A stretch of 20,287 nt of DNA from a virus. Positions 9,456-16,686 of the stretch are shown one piece after another (positions within the stretch are counted from its first letter, which is position 1; every line of letters starts with the position of its first letter). The stretch covers positions 1 through 20,287 of the IMG/VR virus record IMGVR_UViG_3300007513_000248; one strand, given 5' to 3'. The position numbers were made by a program, and so were the translations under genes. Below the pieces are notes generated by a model, which worked only from the letters and a program-made list of their open reading frames with translations, was not told the origin of the DNA and did no database searches.

Positions 9456-9496
9456 TTGTAACTCTCCATAAAAGATCGGTAGTCATATAAAACAAG

Positions 9497-11008
9497 TCAT
9501 AGATAAAATAGGGAAGAAACATCCTCTCCAATCCTATCTTTTGGTGTCCTTACTCCCAACCTATCTACCGTAAGACGGTATGATTGTGCTGTTGCTGTTC
9601 CTTTCATCCTTTGATCTAAACGAATAGTAGAAAGTCCTAATTTCACTTTGGTAGATGACCCCGAAGTGAAACCAACCCTTCCACCATTAGATTCCAATAG
9701 GAACTCCATTCGATAATTTCCTTTATTTTGACCATCTATAATGGTCAGGATCGTGCCTTCTCCACAAGAAGAGAAGTCTTGATCAAGGTCTTTTATAGTG
9801 TTTCCATTGAGAACCGTTAATTTCCCACTCAATCCATTAGAGGTTGTATAGGATCGTGGAGTGTTATCTGCTCCCAAAGGAAAGCAAAGAATATCCTTGA
9901 CCCTGTAGGTTCCCTTGTTCACACCACTCAGAATTTCTAAGGAAGCACCTATTGGTACGCTCTGAAAGTTTTTTGAAGTGTCTGTAAACAAAGATCTATC
10001 TGTAAGGGTAGCTCCGTACCCTGTTATTTCTTTTGCCCCACTACAAAATTTGCGAAAATCCTCATAATAAGAGAGGTCATAGTCCATAGATAAGACATCT
10101 GTAAAAACTTGCTGATAGACCTCTCTGAATAAATGTCTGAATTCATAGAGCGTGTGGGCTGGTTTCAGAATCTGCATCACCAGCGGTAAATTATTGAAAA
10201 TCTTTTGGATATTCTCTGAGAATTCTGAAACAAGATGATGAGTATGCCCTCCGTCCTCAGAAGCTAAAACCTTGAATTGATATATTTCATGGGTGTGGGT
10301 TTCACCCTCTCCATCAAGACTGATAGTCTTCCCATTACCATCACTATCCATTCGTATCGTATGATAATGATCTTCATCTGAAGAGGTGGTTTTCACATTC
10401 AAAAGGGAAACTTCAAATTCAAACTGATCTGCAAGTCTGTAAGCTGAATTAGGTGTCCTCTTCATCTCCATAGATTTCTCTATGATCTGAATATCCCCTT
10501 CAGTCAAGAGCCTAATCCCTTCTTTAACTGTAGAAAGTCTTGAACCATTTAGAAGAAGAACAATCATCTTCTTCAGAAATGTTCTGTGTTCTATGTCGCT
10601 GTCCAACTTGAATGTGAAATCACGATAATGAGGATTGACCAGCCCACCAAGGATCTGGTAGAGAAATTCTGGTCTTGTGAAATCAAAATCACTGTCTGAA
10701 TAGACCTCTTGTGCTACTACCTGTATCTTAGCTATTTGCTCGGCTGCACTTTGAAGTTGCAAGGTATAGAAAGGCCCCTTCACCTGAGAGATATAATTGC
10801 TTGGTAGCAAAGACATCAAGACTTCCAGTATTCTCTCAGTCTGAATCCTAACTCCCCTGTACCACTCCTGACCTGTCTCCTCTATAGGAGAGGGGTTTAT
10901 GGCTACGCTGTTGGGAAAGGTCTTCTCAGAGCCTTCTACATAGTCTGTTTCTGGAAGCTTTGATCCTTCACTATTATATGGAACAAAAGGGTCTTTCTTT
11001 ATCGACAT
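9497..11008 (-). CDS. Baseplate-associated protein following J (gpI-like position) with three HxH motifs
   Basis: A 503-residue protein whose ATG lies two bases after the stop of the J gene. GGGGGA inside the end of J acts as the ribosome binding site. Residues 50-180 are helical, with LLPSNYISQVKGPFYTLQLQ (67-86), RPEFLYQILGGLV (112-124) and FLKKMIVLLLNGSR (144-157). A Gly/Asp-rich insert at about 208-262 carries HYH (214-216), HTH (238-240) and HTHH (255-258), a plausible metal-binding beta-hairpin. Residues 265-320 are again helical. The C-terminal third holds two ungapped 35-residue repeats (340-374 and 404-438) sharing G.NKG.YR. Its place after J matches gpI/wedge-periphery proteins of contractile phages, but the sequence does not let me name a family. 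It probably joins the baseplate to the fibres encoded next. The gap to the fibre gene is 41 bases. Confidence 0.82.
   Translation of the reverse strand: MSIKKDPFVPYNSEGSKLPETDYVEGSEKTFPNSVAINPSPIEETGQEWYRGVRIQTERILEVLMSLLPSNYISQVKGPFYTLQLQSAAEQIAKIQVVAQEVYSDSDFDFTRPEFLYQILGGLVNPHYRDFTFKLDSDIEHRTFLKKMIVLLLNGSRLSTVKEGIRLLTEGDIQIIEKSMEMKRTPNSAYRLADQFEFEVSLLNVKTTSSDEDHYHTIRMDSDGNGKTISLDGEGETHTHEIYQFKVLASEDGGHTHHLVSEFSENIQKIFNNLPLVMQILKPAHTLYEFRHLFREVYQQVFTDVLSMDYDLSYYEDFRKFCSGAKEITGYGATLTDRSLFTDTSKNFQSVPIGASLEILSGVNKGTYRVKDILCFPLGADNTPRSYTTSNGLSGKLTVLNGNTIKDLDQDFSSCGEGTILTIIDGQNKGNYRMEFLLESNGGRVGFTSGSSTKVKLGLSTIRLDQRMKGTATAQSYRLTVDRLGVRTPKDRIGEDVSSLFYL
9695..9991 (-). repeat. Two 35-residue beta repeats in the post-J baseplate protein
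   Basis: Residues 340-374 (9887-9991) and 404-438 (9695-9799) align without gaps, with 13 of 35 identical positions by hand count. Shared positions include Asp, Phe, Gly-x-x-Leu-x-Ile and the strongest stretch G.NKG.YR. Each probably forms a small beta-hairpin module of the kind that recurs in tail and fibre proteins. The 64-residue offset leaves a 29-residue linker between them. Confidence 0.65.
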
Positions 11009-11010
11009 TC

Positions 11011-14000
11011 TTAGTATCCCCCACTGGAGGAATATGAAGTACCTGCTGACAGACGATTGGAAACACTGTCAGAATCGTATAAAAATTCAAAGGTTCCCGG
11101 AATTAGATACTCAATCGGCCCAGTTTCAATACTGGAAACACCTTCACTTCTACCTACAAAATAAGTCACATCGTAAGTATATGAAGTTGGAATTTCTTCA
11201 TAGGACATCGTGACCAAAACCCTGTTGGCTGTCATACTAACAGCAAGATCGTTTATTTCATTCTCTGTCTTTGAAGGATAAAGAGCCTGTAGTGTCTCCT
11301 GATCTGAGTATCCTTGGATAGACATCCCTTCATATCCTATGATGAAAGCCCTTCCCGATTTCTCTACAAAAGGAAGCCCCTCACTATTAGGAATATCTAC
11401 AATTATTTCTAACGGAGTGGTTCCTTGATACACGGCTCTGAATTCATTTACTGATCCACCACCTGTTAAGGTATCTGAGTTTAGGGGGTCTTTGATGAGA
11501 TATGTGCAGACCTCATTTGTAGACCAAGCATCTATTTTCACAATGTCAGCATCTTCACTGGCATCTATAGCTTCTCTTACAACATAGGATTCTTCTGTTC
11601 TACTCACCTTTGTAAGAGGAACCACCACATAAGAAACACCAGTGGTATTATCTATCACTTCAATAATATCAGATTGTCTAAGGGGTGTTCCGAAAGATAG
11701 AGAATTAAAGAGGTTGTATAATCTTCCTCTGAGTAATCGATCCACTACGGACATTTCAGCCCCTTGTGAAAGAATGACCGTTGCAGAAATATCTACAATA
11801 TTCCTAACAGCCTCTTTCACAACAACATCGGCTGTTAAATGCTTCATATTGTTAATGCTGTTCTGAGCCACACTCAACATAGAATTCACCGAATACGTCA
11901 CAGTGTAATTCTCATCATGCTTATAGGAAGCTATAACCACAGATCCTGACGGAATAGCACTGTTTTCGGTTCTCTGAATACCAAGAGGGGTATTATCATC
12001 TCCTTCAATAACTCTATAATCAGGAAAAGAAGAAGTAGGTGAAGCGTACTCCGTACCCTCAGAATCTGTGATAACTATCGTCAAAGGGTTAATCCCTAAA
12101 TACCGAAGATAATCAACAGTATTTCCAACCAAGATATGTTCTTCATCAGTAACAGTTGTGACTGAACCAAGATCCTTCTCTGTACTTATTTGTATGTGGT
12201 CAGCAGCTAAGGTTGAGTACCCCATTTCCAGAATAGATTGTTTGCGGTATAGGGCATATTCGGTATCGGTAAGAACCACATTACTTCCAGAAACGTCAAT
12301 CAAAGAAAGTACTGGCTGTCTGGACATTGTGAAAGCATTGCTGGTGCGGTAGCGGTAATCTCCCATGACGACATCTGTTAAATCAAGATCAGCAGGGTCA
12401 TTATATTGACTGGAAAGCTGAATTCTATTGTAAGAAAGAATGGTCAGCCCTGTTAAAACGAAATTCGTACCTTCACTGTGGTTTCGGATACCATAAGGAG
12501 GAACCTCATCAGGCAAATCTAAAACTTCTATCAAGGGATTGTCCAGCGTAAGATTTTGATCTTGGATTTCAAAAATAAGATCCTGCGGATCACCAACCAC
12601 TTCAAATTGAACATCCCTCTTTGTTTCAAAAGAAAAGGCAAAATTGTCTGTAACGATTGAATCTTGCGACCCCCGTATATAAACATCAACCTTCCCACCT
12701 TTGTGTTGTTGAAGGGTGTTGTCATAATCTCTCTTCATCAGGCTCTCTCCAGAACCAACAATCTTACTTTCAGCCACACCAGCCAAACCTGAAACCAACT
12801 GCCGATAGCCTTGAAGGGTTCCTGTATCTACAGAGGAAAGGGTGTGCTGCGCCCTTACAGCCAATTCTCTATTACTCTCTTGATCTCTACCTCCAAAGAA
12901 AGTCTCTTTATTCCTCACAAGTACGTTCAAACCCGTAACAGTAGTGATTTTCCCCACCGAAACATTTCCAACAAGCCCAGAAGAATTGCAGATAGCAAAT
13001 GTCGTAACCTCATACCACCCCGTAGAAGGGTCGTAGTGTGAGATCAAATTCCGTAATGAAATTTCAGTATAGGCTGTCGTTCTAAAGGAGAGGCTTCCAG
13101 CAGAAATTGTCGTACCAAGAGGGATACTATGCGTTGTTGTTGGTTTTGAAGTTACATAGAAGGTGACTTGACCTCTGGAGGGAGTGCCACCTCTTCTATA
13201 AACCCCAACATTAGAAGCCAGTTTTTCAAAAGCAGCATCTATAAGATTCTGCGCTTTCATTGAATTTTTGAGGTAAAAAGACTGAGCTAAAGCCTGTTTG
13301 TATGGTGAAGAGGCTGGTGAGATTGAAAACCCTGAATTTGTAGGATCATCAATCTCTAATAGAGTGCTGAAAGACTGTGTACGAGAAAGGAAATCAATAA
13401 GAAATCGTAACCTCACGCTCTCAGCAGACATTGGATCTATAAAAGTATCTCTTAATACCGCACCGGGCTGAACAGCTATGTTTTCATTGGCTCTGTGAAT
13501 GGAGGTAACAATTTCCCTAACTACCTGTCTTCTGGAAACAGTGGGCAATGAGGCAGTATTCAAAGAAAGCTGTATCGGATATCCAACAACCTCTAAAGAA
13601 TACGGACTTTCAAACTCCACACCAGAAATCGTATTGTAATAAACCGCAGTTACTACATAATATAAAGGTCTATCCAAAGGAGTAGAAGAGAACTCATTAT
13701 CAGGTACTGTAGAAGGAGTTGAATTTATGCTCCCAAGCCTATTGTGAGTGAAAGAGTATCGGTTTTTCTTGGCAATGCTCTCTACTGTAATCGAAGTCCT
13801 AAATTGTGTGGTCGCTTCATTAACCGCCATTCTCTCGTTAAATTCAACAGATACGGTATCTCCTTTAGTGTCTTCCTGATACCCAAAAACCCGAAAGTAA
13901 AGGGGGTCTACAGTAAGATCTCCATTAGCATCCACAGATGGAGTAGAGTCTACTGCCAGTTGTCCAATTATGGTAGTATCCTCAATCACTTTATCAACAT

Positions 14001-14517
14001 CTCCTATGGGAGATGGATTAAGGAGTTTATACCCTATTGATCCACCACCCTCTGAAGTAGCTGCGTAGTAATTCATACCAAGGAACTGTCTTTCATAGGA
14101 ATTGGAAGCAGCTATCTCTGCGGAAAGTCTCACAAGTCCAGTTAATCTTTCTACCCTTACTCCAACAGGAATCCCCGACACAGCAGGTAGCTCTTCACTC
14201 TGCAATAGAGTGACCCTAATTAATGCTTCCTCCGTGACTGAACCATCTGTTAGGATAGACCTAACCTTTATTATGTTTTCCCCTATCATTAAAAGGTATC
14301 CATCTGGATACTTAGAGGGGCTTGGTATTGAAAAAGTCTCCCCTTCAAATGTGATTAGGTCTGGATTATCTTCAAAATCCCTCCCCAAAACAGAAATCTG
14401 TAAGTAGGCAGTGTTAGGATCTATTTTGCCTTGAAAAAACCTACTTTCTATAGATGTGGAAAAGCTAAACTCCTCTCTATACTTCCCATCTGGACATAAA
14501 AAACTTGGTGATATCAT
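11011..14517 (-). CDS. Baseplate J-like (T4 gp6-like) wedge protein with large N- and C-terminal extensions
   Basis: A 1168-residue protein. The J core is clear: YRRGGTPSRGQVTFYV near 436-451, then IPLGTTISAGSLSFRTTA, FFGGRDQESNRELAVRAQ near 537-555 and the following GYRQLVSGLAGV, KVDVYIRG near 612, and the C-terminal part DVVVKEAVRNIVDISATVIL near 890-910 with FGTPLRQSDIIEVI. Residues about 20-110 resemble an Ig-like domain and 115-330 an FnIII-like beta region. About 180 residues follow the J core and end in SSSGGY. T4 gp6 is about 660 residues, so this protein is nearly twice that size. J proteins dimerise between neighbouring wedges to form the inner ring of the baseplate. The gap from the gp25-like gene is 11 bases with only a weak GAAG-type ribosome site, so translational coupling is likely. 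Confidence 0.93.
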   Translation of the reverse strand: MISPSFLCPDGKYREEFSFSTSIESRFFQGKIDPNTAYLQISVLGRDFEDNPDLITFEGETFSIPSPSKYPDGYLLMIGENIIKVRSILTDGSVTEEALIRVTLLQSEELPAVSGIPVGVRVERLTGLVRLSAEIAASNSYERQFLGMNYYAATSEGGGSIGYKLLNPSPIGDVDKVIEDTTIIGQLAVDSTPSVDANGDLTVDPLYFRVFGYQEDTKGDTVSVEFNERMAVNEATTQFRTSITVESIAKKNRYSFTHNRLGSINSTPSTVPDNEFSSTPLDRPLYYVVTAVYYNTISGVEFESPYSLEVVGYPIQLSLNTASLPTVSRRQVVREIVTSIHRANENIAVQPGAVLRDTFIDPMSAESVRLRFLIDFLSRTQSFSTLLEIDDPTNSGFSISPASSPYKQALAQSFYLKNSMKAQNLIDAAFEKLASNVGVYRRGGTPSRGQVTFYVTSKPTTTHSIPLGTTISAGSLSFRTTAYTEISLRNLISHYDPSTGWYEVTTFAICNSSGLVGNVSVGKITTVTGLNVLVRNKETFFGGRDQESNRELAVRAQHTLSSVDTGTLQGYRQLVSGLAGVAESKIVGSGESLMKRDYDNTLQQHKGGKVDVYIRGSQDSIVTDNFAFSFETKRDVQFEVVGDPQDLIFEIQDQNLTLDNPLIEVLDLPDEVPPYGIRNHSEGTNFVLTGLTILSYNRIQLSSQYNDPADLDLTDVVMGDYRYRTSNAFTMSRQPVLSLIDVSGSNVVLTDTEYALYRKQSILEMGYSTLAADHIQISTEKDLGSVTTVTDEEHILVGNTVDYLRYLGINPLTIVITDSEGTEYASPTSSFPDYRVIEGDDNTPLGIQRTENSAIPSGSVVIASYKHDENYTVTYSVNSMLSVAQNSINNMKHLTADVVVKEAVRNIVDISATVILSQGAEMSVVDRLLRGRLYNLFNSLSFGTPLRQSDIIEVIDNTTGVSYVVVPLTKVSRTEESYVVREAIDASEDADIVKIDAWSTNEVCTYLIKDPLNSDTLTGGGSVNEFRAVYQGTTPLEIIVDIPNSEGLPFVEKSGRAFIIGYEGMSIQGYSDQETLQALYPSKTENEINDLAVSMTANRVLVTMSYEEIPTSYTYDVTYFVGRSEGVSSIETGPIEYLIPGTFEFLYDSDSVSNRLSAGTSYSSSGGY

Positions 14518-14528
14518 ATCTTCAAACC

Positions 14529-15653
14529 CTAATAAGTATTATTGTTGGATACCAACTGTGCTGATCCCATTCTTGCTATGACTTTACCGTCTTGTAAGAT
14601 ACTACTCACAGTACTTGGGTTGCTATATAGTACTGTTACTTGCAGTCTCTGAGAACTGGCACTTTGAACTACCACATCAATAAGGAAAGTTGTTGGGTCT
14701 GTTGGGGAGGGGATTGTCTCAACGCTTAATATCCTGTAAAGCCTTTCTTTTAGAGTGAGCTTTTGATATTTCCCACTCATAGTCTGATACTCCTGTATCT
14801 GAGACAAAGCTCTCCTTACTTCAGCAGAGACTGCTGAAGAGACTGCTCCAAGAGCCTTTCTTCCAACCTTCTGCCTAAGACTTGTGCCATATCCTTTATA
14901 GAAAAGATTGGAGCCTCTATCTGTGAGCAAGATTTTCAAGCAACTTTGGTAGAGAAGATTCTCATTGTCTACAAATAAAAGCCCCCCATTAGGCCCGAAT
15001 CTAAAGTCATTTTCTATTTCATTTGCTTGACACCTGCGGCATTGGTTTGGGTGTGTAAAATAAGAGAGCCTGAAAGAATGGTTGCTCTTTACGGTTTGTG
15101 AAAACTGTATCCCTCTTGTGAAAAAATATGTTTCTTCTTGATTAAGGCTCCATGAGGGGAAAACTTTTTTTCCTCTCGCCCCTGCCTGTAGGTCAAAGCC
15201 AATATGTGGAGCAGCTTTGCCCAAGACCTGAATAATAGAACTTGAGCCATGTGTTGCAAGATCAGTCAGAGACAAAAATCCGTTGTTATTTTCAACCAAA
15301 AGACTTGTAGCCCTTTTCCGTATTTCTTTGACCAGATCCTTAATTGACAAGCGGTTTTGAAAAGAAGAAGTTTTCAGCGTTAGCTCTATGTGATCTTCCG
15401 TAGAGGAAATTATAAGAGTGTTTTCATATTTGGGAATAAAGAAGGGGCCAGCAATTCTGGATTTTATAGAAGCAGGGGTGTAAAGACCTCCTGACGGAAT
15501 AACCATATCGTTTGCATAGAGGATTGTTCCTCTGGTTGGGCTGCTAAAGATAGGCTGTCTGGTTGAGATAGTCCTACCATCCCCACTCAAAGTAACTGCT
15601 TCTTCAATAGTTTGGTGGGGGCAGGAAAAAGCTAATTGGATATCAAAAGACAT
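14529..15653 (-). CDS. Baseplate wedge protein with C-terminal gp25-like domain, N-terminal extension and CxxC motif
   Basis: A 374-residue protein ending in TAG. Residues about 228-345 match the gp25/gpW-type wedge pattern: NENLLYQSCLKILLTDRGSN (230-249), YKGYGTSLRQKVG (252-264), and a helix VSAEVRRALSQIQEYQ (275-290) before a terminal beta region. T4 gp25 is about 130 residues; here some 225 extra residues precede it. Residues 40-160 look beta-rich, with the recurring phage structural pattern FLSLTDLATHGSSSIIQVLG (126-145). HPNQCRRC (201-208) contains Cys205 and Cys208, and CPH lies at 11-13; these could form a zinc site, which is inference. It sits directly before J, as gp25-like genes do in many contractile phages. 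The 52-base leader holds an inverted repeat covering its ribosome site, so its translation may be controlled. Confidence 0.82.
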   Translation of the reverse strand: MSFDIQLAFSCPHQTIEEAVTLSGDGRTISTRQPIFSSPTRGTILYANDMVIPSGGLYTPASIKSRIAGPFFIPKYENTLIISSTEDHIELTLKTSSFQNRLSIKDLVKEIRKRATSLLVENNNGFLSLTDLATHGSSSIIQVLGKAAPHIGFDLQAGARGKKVFPSWSLNQEETYFFTRGIQFSQTVKSNHSFRLSYFTHPNQCRRCQANEIENDFRFGPNGGLLFVDNENLLYQSCLKILLTDRGSNLFYKGYGTSLRQKVGRKALGAVSSAVSAEVRRALSQIQEYQTMSGKYQKLTLKERLYRILSVETIPSPTDPTTFLIDVVVQSASSQRLQVTVLYSNPSTVSSILQDGKVIARMGSAQLVSNNNTY

Positions 15654-15655
15654 AG

Positions 15656-15680
15656 GTATTCCTCTCTCTCATAGGAATAC
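15656..15680 (-). promoter_or_regulatory. Perfect 8-bp hairpin over the ribosome binding site of the gp25-like gene
   Basis: On the coding strand GTATTCCT (15680-15673) is followed by a nine-base loop (15672-15664) and then AGGAATAC (15663-15656). The arms are exact reverse complements. The Shine-Dalgarno GAGAGAGGA runs from the loop into the 3' arm, and the ATG begins two bases after the stem. In RNA the folded form would hide AGGA and crowd the start codon. There is no U-tract after the stem, so it does not read as a terminator. Regulation by upstream translation, a protein or temperature is inference. Confidence 0.6.
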
Positions 15681-15705
15681 TCTTATAGACAAAAACCCAC
15701 AAAGA

Positions 15706-16686
15706 TCAAAACATCATACTCAAAGCACCTTCAGTCTTATCATCTTTATATGCCCAAACCTCATTGATAACGAACCTCGGCATAGAAAGTACTGGCTGAT
15801 TCTCTTCGTCTGTATGAAAGAATGTCCTATCGTAGTCATAAACAAGAGACTGAACACGGCTTTTTAAGAAATATTTTGCTGAAGGATCAAAAATAGCATC
15901 TTCTTCTCCACCCAATTCACTTTCATCAAAACTACCAGACAACCAAAAGGGCAAGAGAGCAGACACAGCACCCCCAAAGGCTTTGGTTAAAGTTTCAATT
16001 TCTTGTTCTAATTGTTCAGAGAGGTCACAAAGCTTAATGATCTTATGTTCCAAAAGGTGTAGTTTTTCCGCAATTTCCTGATTTGCCCAACCTCGTAGCT
16101 TATGCATGGCATCTGCCATAATAGTGTGTTCTTTGTTCCAGACTAAACGAGGCTGACCTGTTTTGTCCACCAATCTTGCAGGTTGGTACTTTTTCACATT
16201 CAACATCCCACCAGCATCAGAACCCCAATCCAATTCTTCAATAGTCTCTTCTGTCTTACTAATATTAGATTCGTGACGGGAAGAATTCGGGTGAACTCTG
16301 GAAACAGGAGCTATTAGCCCCCCATAGGGATATTTCTCCACCTCTTTTATCTCCCCATCTCCTATTACTTCAATGGCTTTGGTTTCATTGGGGTGCATAA
16401 ACATAGAGATATCATATGGGTTCCCCCCAACCATTATGTAAGCCATTACAAGACCTTCTAAGGAAGAACCTTCGGTAACAGAGAAATTCAACCTTTTCTC
16501 TGTTCTATATTTTCCAGTATCGGTTTCGATAGCCTCATAGGTCACAGTAATGTATCCAATCCTATCCCTCTCTACTTGTATGCTTTTAATCCTGTGTGGA
16601 ATATTCACGGCTTCTCTTAGAAGCCACTCTCGTATTCCAAGCCAATAGCCCGTTCTAAAACGAGTAAAACCACCAAAACTACCCAT
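15706..16686 (-). CDS. Uncharacterised virion structural protein, 326 residues
   Basis: ATG start three bases after the stop of the 952-residue gene, with GGGGTGAG as ribosome site. I do not recognise the family. Residues 1-30 are aromatic and basic (FGGFTRFRTGYWLGIREWLL). Residues 33-70 look like beta strands. MVGGNPYDISMFMHP (85-99) is a distinctive loop. A proline/glycine-rich middle (118-185) leads to a helical stretch at about 186-240 (HKLRGWANQEIAEKLHLLEH onward) with coiled-coil character. The last 60 residues are acidic to mixed and end in EGALSMMF. No signal peptide or transmembrane helix is visible. Its place between a large structural gene and the gp25-like wedge suggests a tail or baseplate part, inferred from context alone. 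Confidence 0.8.
   Translation of the reverse strand: MGSFGGFTRFRTGYWLGIREWLLREAVNIPHRIKSIQVERDRIGYITVTYEAIETDTGKYRTEKRLNFSVTEGSSLEGLVMAYIMVGGNPYDISMFMHPNETKAIEVIGDGEIKEVEKYPYGGLIAPVSRVHPNSSRHESNISKTEETIEELDWGSDAGGMLNVKKYQPARLVDKTGQPRLVWNKEHTIMADAMHKLRGWANQEIAEKLHLLEHKIIKLCDLSEQLEQEIETLTKAFGGAVSALLPFWLSGSFDESELGGEEDAIFDPSAKYFLKSRVQSLVYDYDRTFFHTDEENQPVLSMPRFVINEVWAYKDDKTEGALSMMF

Follow-up and report, generated by a model that had tools for sequence, protein, structure and literature searches.

A CTATA-centred promoter-like element in the sheath-initiator leaders of uncultured large phages and its overlap with a ribosome-site hairpin in one of them

Two leaders of bacteriophage T4 are the closest described precedents for the locus analysed here. 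In T4 gene e, as in soc, 49 and I-TevI, the Shine-Dalgarno sequence (SD) is held in a stem on longer transcripts, and the DNA of the gene e late promoter encodes the 5′ strand of that stem, which is absent from RNA started at the promoter (PMC3014915 and PMC2988022, in their available parts). The hairpin of the T4 gene 25 leader sits between SD and AUG and aids translation, according to the available part of PMC3014915. The late motifs of the large phages phiKZ and AR9 are given as TATG at the start site and AACA-N6-UA/G (PMC7598289, available portion), and one huge phage is described as carrying its own sigma-70, with no promoter motif mentioned in the accessible part of that report (PMC7162821). 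The open-access literature yielded no description of CTATA as a phage late promoter; the promoter-like element presented below is apparently undescribed, while the kinds to which it belongs, phage promoters and promoter-overlapped masking hairpins, are already known.

The window, that is, the whole stretch of DNA analysed, is a 20,287-base virus record whose main genes all lie on the minus strand. A 52-nt gap, bounded by the stop of one open reading frame (ORF) and the ATG of the next, forms the leader of a baseplate gene, and an identical leader and protein are also found on a 59,885-base IMG/VR contig. The genes and the parts of the leader hairpin, numbered with the C of CTATA as 0, are as follows.

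15706 to 16686, minus strand: upstream gene, 326 aa, function not assigned
15654 to 15705, minus strand: leader of the sheath-initiator (gp25-like) gene, 52 nt
15673 to 15680, minus strand: 5′ arm of the stem, GUAUUCCU, 8 bp, +8 to +15
15664 to 15672, minus strand: loop, AUGAGAGAG, 9 nt, +16 to +24
15656 to 15663, minus strand: 3′ arm of the stem, AGGAAUAC, +25 to +32, with the SD core AGGA at 15663-15660
14529 to 15653, minus strand: sheath-initiator (gp25-like) gene, 374 aa, Pfam and PHROG matches
11011 to 14517, minus strand: Baseplate_J-like wedge gene, 1168 aa, Pfam and PHROG matches

The first-pass annotation had named the gene gp25-like, a label that proved reasonable: its product matches the PF10934 sheath initiator at E=1.1e-6 (29.1 bits, below the curated 32.9) and PHROG baseplate families at E from 4.2e-5, and the gene that follows is Baseplate_J. 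The 326-aa protein encoded upstream has no Pfam or PHROG match, and in most of the relatives inspected a homologous gene likewise stands before the sheath initiator. The leader, which had been described as the longest gap of the window, is so between main genes, another gap, of 41 nt, lying at 9456-9496.

Folding of the minus strand reproduced the reported hairpin, with eight perfect pairs between the two arms, AGGA inside the 3′ arm and a distance of 2 nt from the end of that arm to the ATG; folds of the plus strand were set aside because that strand does not carry the genes. The hairpin by itself has a folding energy of -7.4 kcal/mol. When the leader was shuffled 20,000 times with dinucleotides preserved, perfect stems of at least 8 pairs with loops of 3-15 nt arose in 175 of the shuffles, and 74 shuffles had one whose 3′ arm fell in the SD zone, a frequency in which the window's other leaders are not yet allowed for. 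The folding energy of the 71-nt leader is unremarkable (z -0.71; 41 of 200 shuffles equally stable). A 9-codon ORF that is open from the AUG in the loop and overlaps the start was considered and dropped because this AUG is not conserved, GTAGA and GTGAG being as common. Rfam gave no match above gathering score and two far below it, one of which, to U7 snRNA over the leader at 18.1 of 34 bits, was treated as chance.

Similar to T4 gene 25, an orthologous baseplate gene is thus preceded by a leader hairpin, and in contrast to the split ribosome binding site (RBS) of T4 the SD lies inside the 3′ arm of the stem rather than upstream of the hairpin. The likeness to T4 gene e is that the SD would be sequestered in a stem on read-through RNA, as judged by folding only, and that a promoter-like element, known from sequence alone, overlaps the 5′ arm. 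The locus differs from gene e in that the gene concerned is the sheath initiator, most relatives are without the stem, the arrangement is predicted, and the element comprises CTATA flanked by a block on either side instead of TATAAATA.

The baseplate proteins, searched against viral contigs, identified relatives at about 36-48% identity, the only nearer match being the identical contig, and searches of genome contigs returned no relative. Among 50,697 phage records, LR745208.1 (485 kb, unannotated) was the sole match over most of the protein, while Tunturiibacter phage Tunturi_5 matched in part. Since the clade is represented in that collection by one unannotated full relative, no annotation would have shown the element described here. 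In LR745208.1 (L003:5823-6003), the ~300 nt ahead of the sheath initiator are filled by a small ORF whose stop codon overlaps the start of that gene; the distant sheath-initiator leader of Tunturi_5 (L004:4710-4767) has a strong fold over the SD (-16.0 kcal/mol over 57 nt) and no CTATA. The 184 sheath-initiator ORFs collected were reduced to 97 distinct leaders and 83 representatives (<80% protein identity), after exclusion of 21 ORFs without a start fitting the pattern and 3 too close to a contig end. A second look at the excluded rows revealed a start in 14, with CTATA present in 11 of them and absent from the other 3 (L204/L211/L215, a single sequence); these 14 enter no count.

Apart from one element, little aligns between these leaders. 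This element, CGGTR-N6-CTATA-N11-RNRRR, lies 20-61 nt before the start codon of sheath initiators of uncultured large phages, and it is this part of the leader that is conserved, not the hairpin on which the first-pass annotation had concentrated. CTATA is found in 53 of the 83 representative leaders, against a dinucleotide-shuffle mean of 4.3 (maximum 11 in 200 rounds), and in 43 of the 51 leaders with a gap of 20-70 nt (shuffle 2.9, maximum 8). It is missing from 30 of the 83 and from 8 of the 51, respectively; 11 of the 30 leaders lacking it have CTAT followed by another base (CTATC, CTATG, CTATT), such that CTATN is present in 64 of 83. CTATA occurs in 3 of the 8 representatives with a gap below 20 nt, a group mostly made up of a separate, more distant branch (L042-L050) in which the sheath initiator abuts the previous gene. 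Flanking preferences comprise C-11, G-10, T-8, G-2, C/T-1 and the purines R16, R19 and R20, the spacer and positions -22 to -12 being hardly conserved. The RNRRR block persists at all leader lengths, including those with the start codon at least 40 nt away, and is therefore not simply an SD. In the window the element is composed as follows.

15696 to 15699, minus strand: upstream block, GGGT here (consensus CGGT, -11 to -8)
15684 to 15688, minus strand: CTATA core
15673 to 15683, minus strand: spacer, 11 nt, AGAGTATTCCT, which holds the 5′ arm of the hairpin
15668 to 15672, minus strand: purine block, ATGAG (consensus RNRRR), the first part of the hairpin loop

A weight matrix built from sheath-initiator leaders only ranks the site at 15688-15684 first of all positions on both strands of the window, at 16.7 bits; with the window left out of the matrix the site still reaches 15.5 bits versus 11.7 for the runner-up, and among the 44 CTATA sites of the window it has the highest flank score (6.2, the next being 2.4). 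Two further arrangements were seen in leaders of the collection. In several leaders, including L076 and L077 (record G005), TTCGTATA or GTTCGTATA stands in place of the CTATA element, and these perhaps represent a second promoter class. In leaders L140 and L141 a 9-bp inverted repeat lies immediately 5′ of CTATA and runs into it, and another, short inverted repeat encloses the SD, with single-base differences between the two leaders in both repeats.

The same matrix was scanned over 18 records, the near-identical G009 and G012 both being counted. Intergenic sequence read in the sense of the following gene contained 46 matches (3.47 per 10 kb), against 12 in antisense (0.87 per 10 kb), and called coding sequence contained 62 in sense (0.27 per 10 kb) and 45 in antisense (0.20). 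After removal of the sheath-initiator leaders, 37 sense and 12 antisense intergenic matches and the same 62 and 45 coding matches remain; the gene caller was crude, and some of the 107 coding matches are misassigned. No sense intergenic match was found in G004 or G013. Sites of at least 12 bits stand before an ORF of at least 100 aa closed off upstream in 43 of 66 cases, versus 57 of 457 for other CTATA sites (Fisher p=3e-19; ten records, the 66 including the sheath-initiator leaders themselves). A first k-mer test, diluted by pooling intergenic gaps, gave CTATA in 38 sense and 33 antisense of 433 gaps (shuffle 16.1), and TCTATA, over seven records, in 8 sense and 1 antisense of 51 gaps (shuffle 0.7). 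The strongest 6-mer excess in the pooled gaps belongs to GCGTAA, present in 24 of 433 (14 records) versus 4.2 expected.

Ten proteins encoded behind matrix matches were annotated: one is clearly structural (gp9/10-like, baseplate), one has a weak AAA/helicase-like match and 8 of the 10 have no PHROG match. With a single clear structural match in ten, the late-gene label rests mainly on the baseplate genes. In the window itself, the second-longest gap (9456-9513), which precedes a 2326-aa gene, contains the lookalike CTATG-N11-ATGAC; it scores 0.9 bits, rank 59, and is therefore not claimed as an element. CTATA is present in the leaders of similar long genes in G005, G009, G012 and G015.

A signal that is strand-specific, located upstream of gene starts and built of two or three blocks at fixed spacing with free sequence between them is what a promoter would look like, and CGGTR-N6-CTATA-N11-RNRRR is very probably a promoter. 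Known promoter types were compared. The T4 late promoter TATAAATA does not describe the element, as only CTATA is conserved and +5 to +7 are free; a sigma-70 promoter was rejected as there is no conservation at the -35 distance (TTGACA-like, 16-18 nt before TATAAT), and a scan of the window for host sigma-70 sites returned one site, at 15436-15409, inside coding sequence, no better than the shuffle mean of 1.0. Similar to T4-type late promoters and the sigma-70 -10 box, a short AT-rich core precedes structural genes with no -35 at the usual distance. In contrast to both, CTATA is followed by no fixed base and is accompanied by CGGTR 6 nt upstream and RNRRR 11 nt downstream. The comparison with phiKZ and AR9 extends to a late-promoter motif in large phages. 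The motif itself differs, and these jumbo phages have their own multisubunit RNA polymerases, while the Rpb1 domain (PF00623) was matched in 0 of 20 records here (control 14 of 14), a search that incomplete records or distant phage subunits could escape. The T7-type polymerase family PF00940 was likewise matched in 0 of 20 records, with a positive control that was equally silent.

A candidate for the factor that recognises the element is a protein of ~200 aa resembling sigma-70 region 4. Region 4 was matched at E<=0.001 in 10 of 20 records, 7 of which exceed the cut-off; region 2 was matched in only 1 of 20, so that the protein is not necessarily a sigma factor. A model spanning the whole protein was matched by 9 of 21 records, each longer than 222 kb, and the protein is present in 9 of the 10 clade records over 220 kb, the exception being G022. 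Shorter records are probably fragments, and absence from them therefore says nothing. The model did not match Tunturi_5, the leader of which is also without CTATA. Loci encoding the protein include L314:1354-1959, which has two helix-turn-helix stretches, and L316:1189-1791; a NusG/KOW-like ORF adjoins it in both loci inspected. That this protein reads CTATA is a guess, the link being a correlation.

The reading preferred here, to which a probability of roughly 0.6 is assigned as a whole, weighted towards the promoter, is that the leader is a phage promoter region whose spacer can double as a translation lock. RNA polymerase, probably that of the host with a phage factor, would recognise CGGTR-N6-CTATA-N11-RNRRR and begin the baseplate-gene transcript towards the end of the spacer or within the purine block, and use of the element would be late. 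In the leader alignment purines are enriched at +15/+16, with no enrichment at +5, which suggests that transcripts begin at +10 or beyond, in the loop or close to it. In the window phage the spacer also encodes one arm (5′) of the hairpin, the SD lying in the other: read-through RNA entering from upstream contains both arms and would be poorly translated, while RNA started at the element would lack most of the 5′ arm and be freely translated. If transcripts start at +10 or later, folding gives an energy gap, the opening of AGGA costing 6.2 kcal/mol in read-through RNA versus 2.1-2.2 in the element-started RNA, and that of GAGG falling from 7.0 to 4.7-4.8 kcal/mol. The idea of a regulatory leader put forward in the first-pass annotation is supported, and folding predicts that the stem masks the SD on RNA entering from upstream, but the stem is not a family trait.

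Pairing between spacer and RBS was evaluated in 37 of the 53 CTATA representatives, those with CTATA at least 30 nt from the start. Pairing of each RBS with its own spacer exceeds that in re-paired sets (392 versus 341.9, sd 14.0; 0 of 500) and with shuffled spacers (combined p=0.0018; p=0.015 without the window phage), and a control stretch of 11 nt upstream displays no excess (p=0.999). Stems of at least 7 contiguous pairs occur in 5 of 37 leaders, a number reached in 6 of 300 re-pairings. Opening energy computed with the spacer as the only variable gave p=0.004 over the 37 leaders, with only 4 of 37 at p<=0.05 and the window at rank 16 of 300, and for the whole leader the test was not significant (p=0.08 over 31 leaders, p=0.12 over 20). 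Individual stems reach p<=0.05 in seven leaders, namely the window, L126, L015, L144, L159, L171 and L022; the seven differ from one another in sequence, and L144 follows the plan of the window, with a spacer arm, a GUGAG loop and an SD arm. No such stem was found at this threshold in the other 30 of 37 leaders, including those of the nearest testable relatives by protein identity (L121, L011, L214 and L008). Loss of the stem in relatives, which had been named as grounds for refutation, is therefore largely what is seen at the level of the family, although the 97 distinct leaders include no relative between 44% and 100% protein identity, the range suited to a proper comparison. Probably, the hairpin is an optional addition particular to some lineages.

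The main competing explanation accepts the promoter and regards the hairpin as an accident of a U/C-rich spacer beside an A/G-rich SD, with no role. The 30 of 37 leaders without a significant stem fit it, as does the ordinary RBS opening of the window leader, matched by 64 of 200 shuffles and approached by two further window genes whose RBSs are about equally closed (9.2 and 8.3 versus 9.0 kcal/mol). It does not account for the rarity of an exact SD-overlapping stem (74 of 20,000 shuffles) or for spacer-RBS pairing above chance over 37 leaders, which holds without the window and is not seen in the upstream control, and it is considered somewhat unlikely. Conversely, that the hairpin matters to the phage may be put forward only tentatively, at rather less than even odds, and an optional translation lock on the sheath-initiator RNA is plausible. 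The most extended version of the preferred reading, in which a three-block promoter served by host RNA polymerase and the sigma-region-4-like factor drives structural genes throughout the clade and the spacer lock evolved independently several times, appears unlikely as a package.

Alternatively, the hairpin could stand alone, masking the RBS in all transcripts and determining how fast the baseplate gene is translated, whether or not a protein ligand takes part; in a variant, a start at +5 to +8 would place the stem at the 5′ end of every transcript, where it could also shield RNA from decay. In RNA from +5 or +8 the stem indeed persists and AGGA stays masked, its opening costing 5.7 and 4.6 kcal/mol, respectively, beside the 6.2 of read-through RNA. 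The stem is not conserved, however, the conserved sequence being the element, and the purine enrichment at +15/+16 rather than +5 hints at a start near the loop, which makes this explanation improbable. An element that works at the RNA level instead of as a promoter, for example by being processed or by binding a protein, would be strand-specific and located in leaders as observed; its blocks are, however, short, about one DNA turn apart and not mutually complementary, and Rfam holds no match above gathering score, such that this possibility is judged improbable. Neither control of baseplate stoichiometry nor a site of RNA processing, both suggested by the initial reading of the sequence, gained support in the analysis. 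A split, accommodated RBS in which an SD 5′ of the hairpin is brought close to the start codon by the fold, as described for the T4 orthologue in the available part of PMC3014915, can be practically dismissed, as the SD is part of the 3′ arm and ordinarily spaced, only 2 nt separate the stem from the AUG and a weak UAAGA is all that is available 5′ of the stem.

The timing of late genes is poorly understood in large phages that lack an RNA polymerase of their own. A promoter composed of a short element, recognisable even in metagenomic phages that carry no annotation, would provide operon starts together with a candidate factor. If the spacer lock is real, the arrangement of T4 gene e would have arisen again, with another promoter and at a structural gene.
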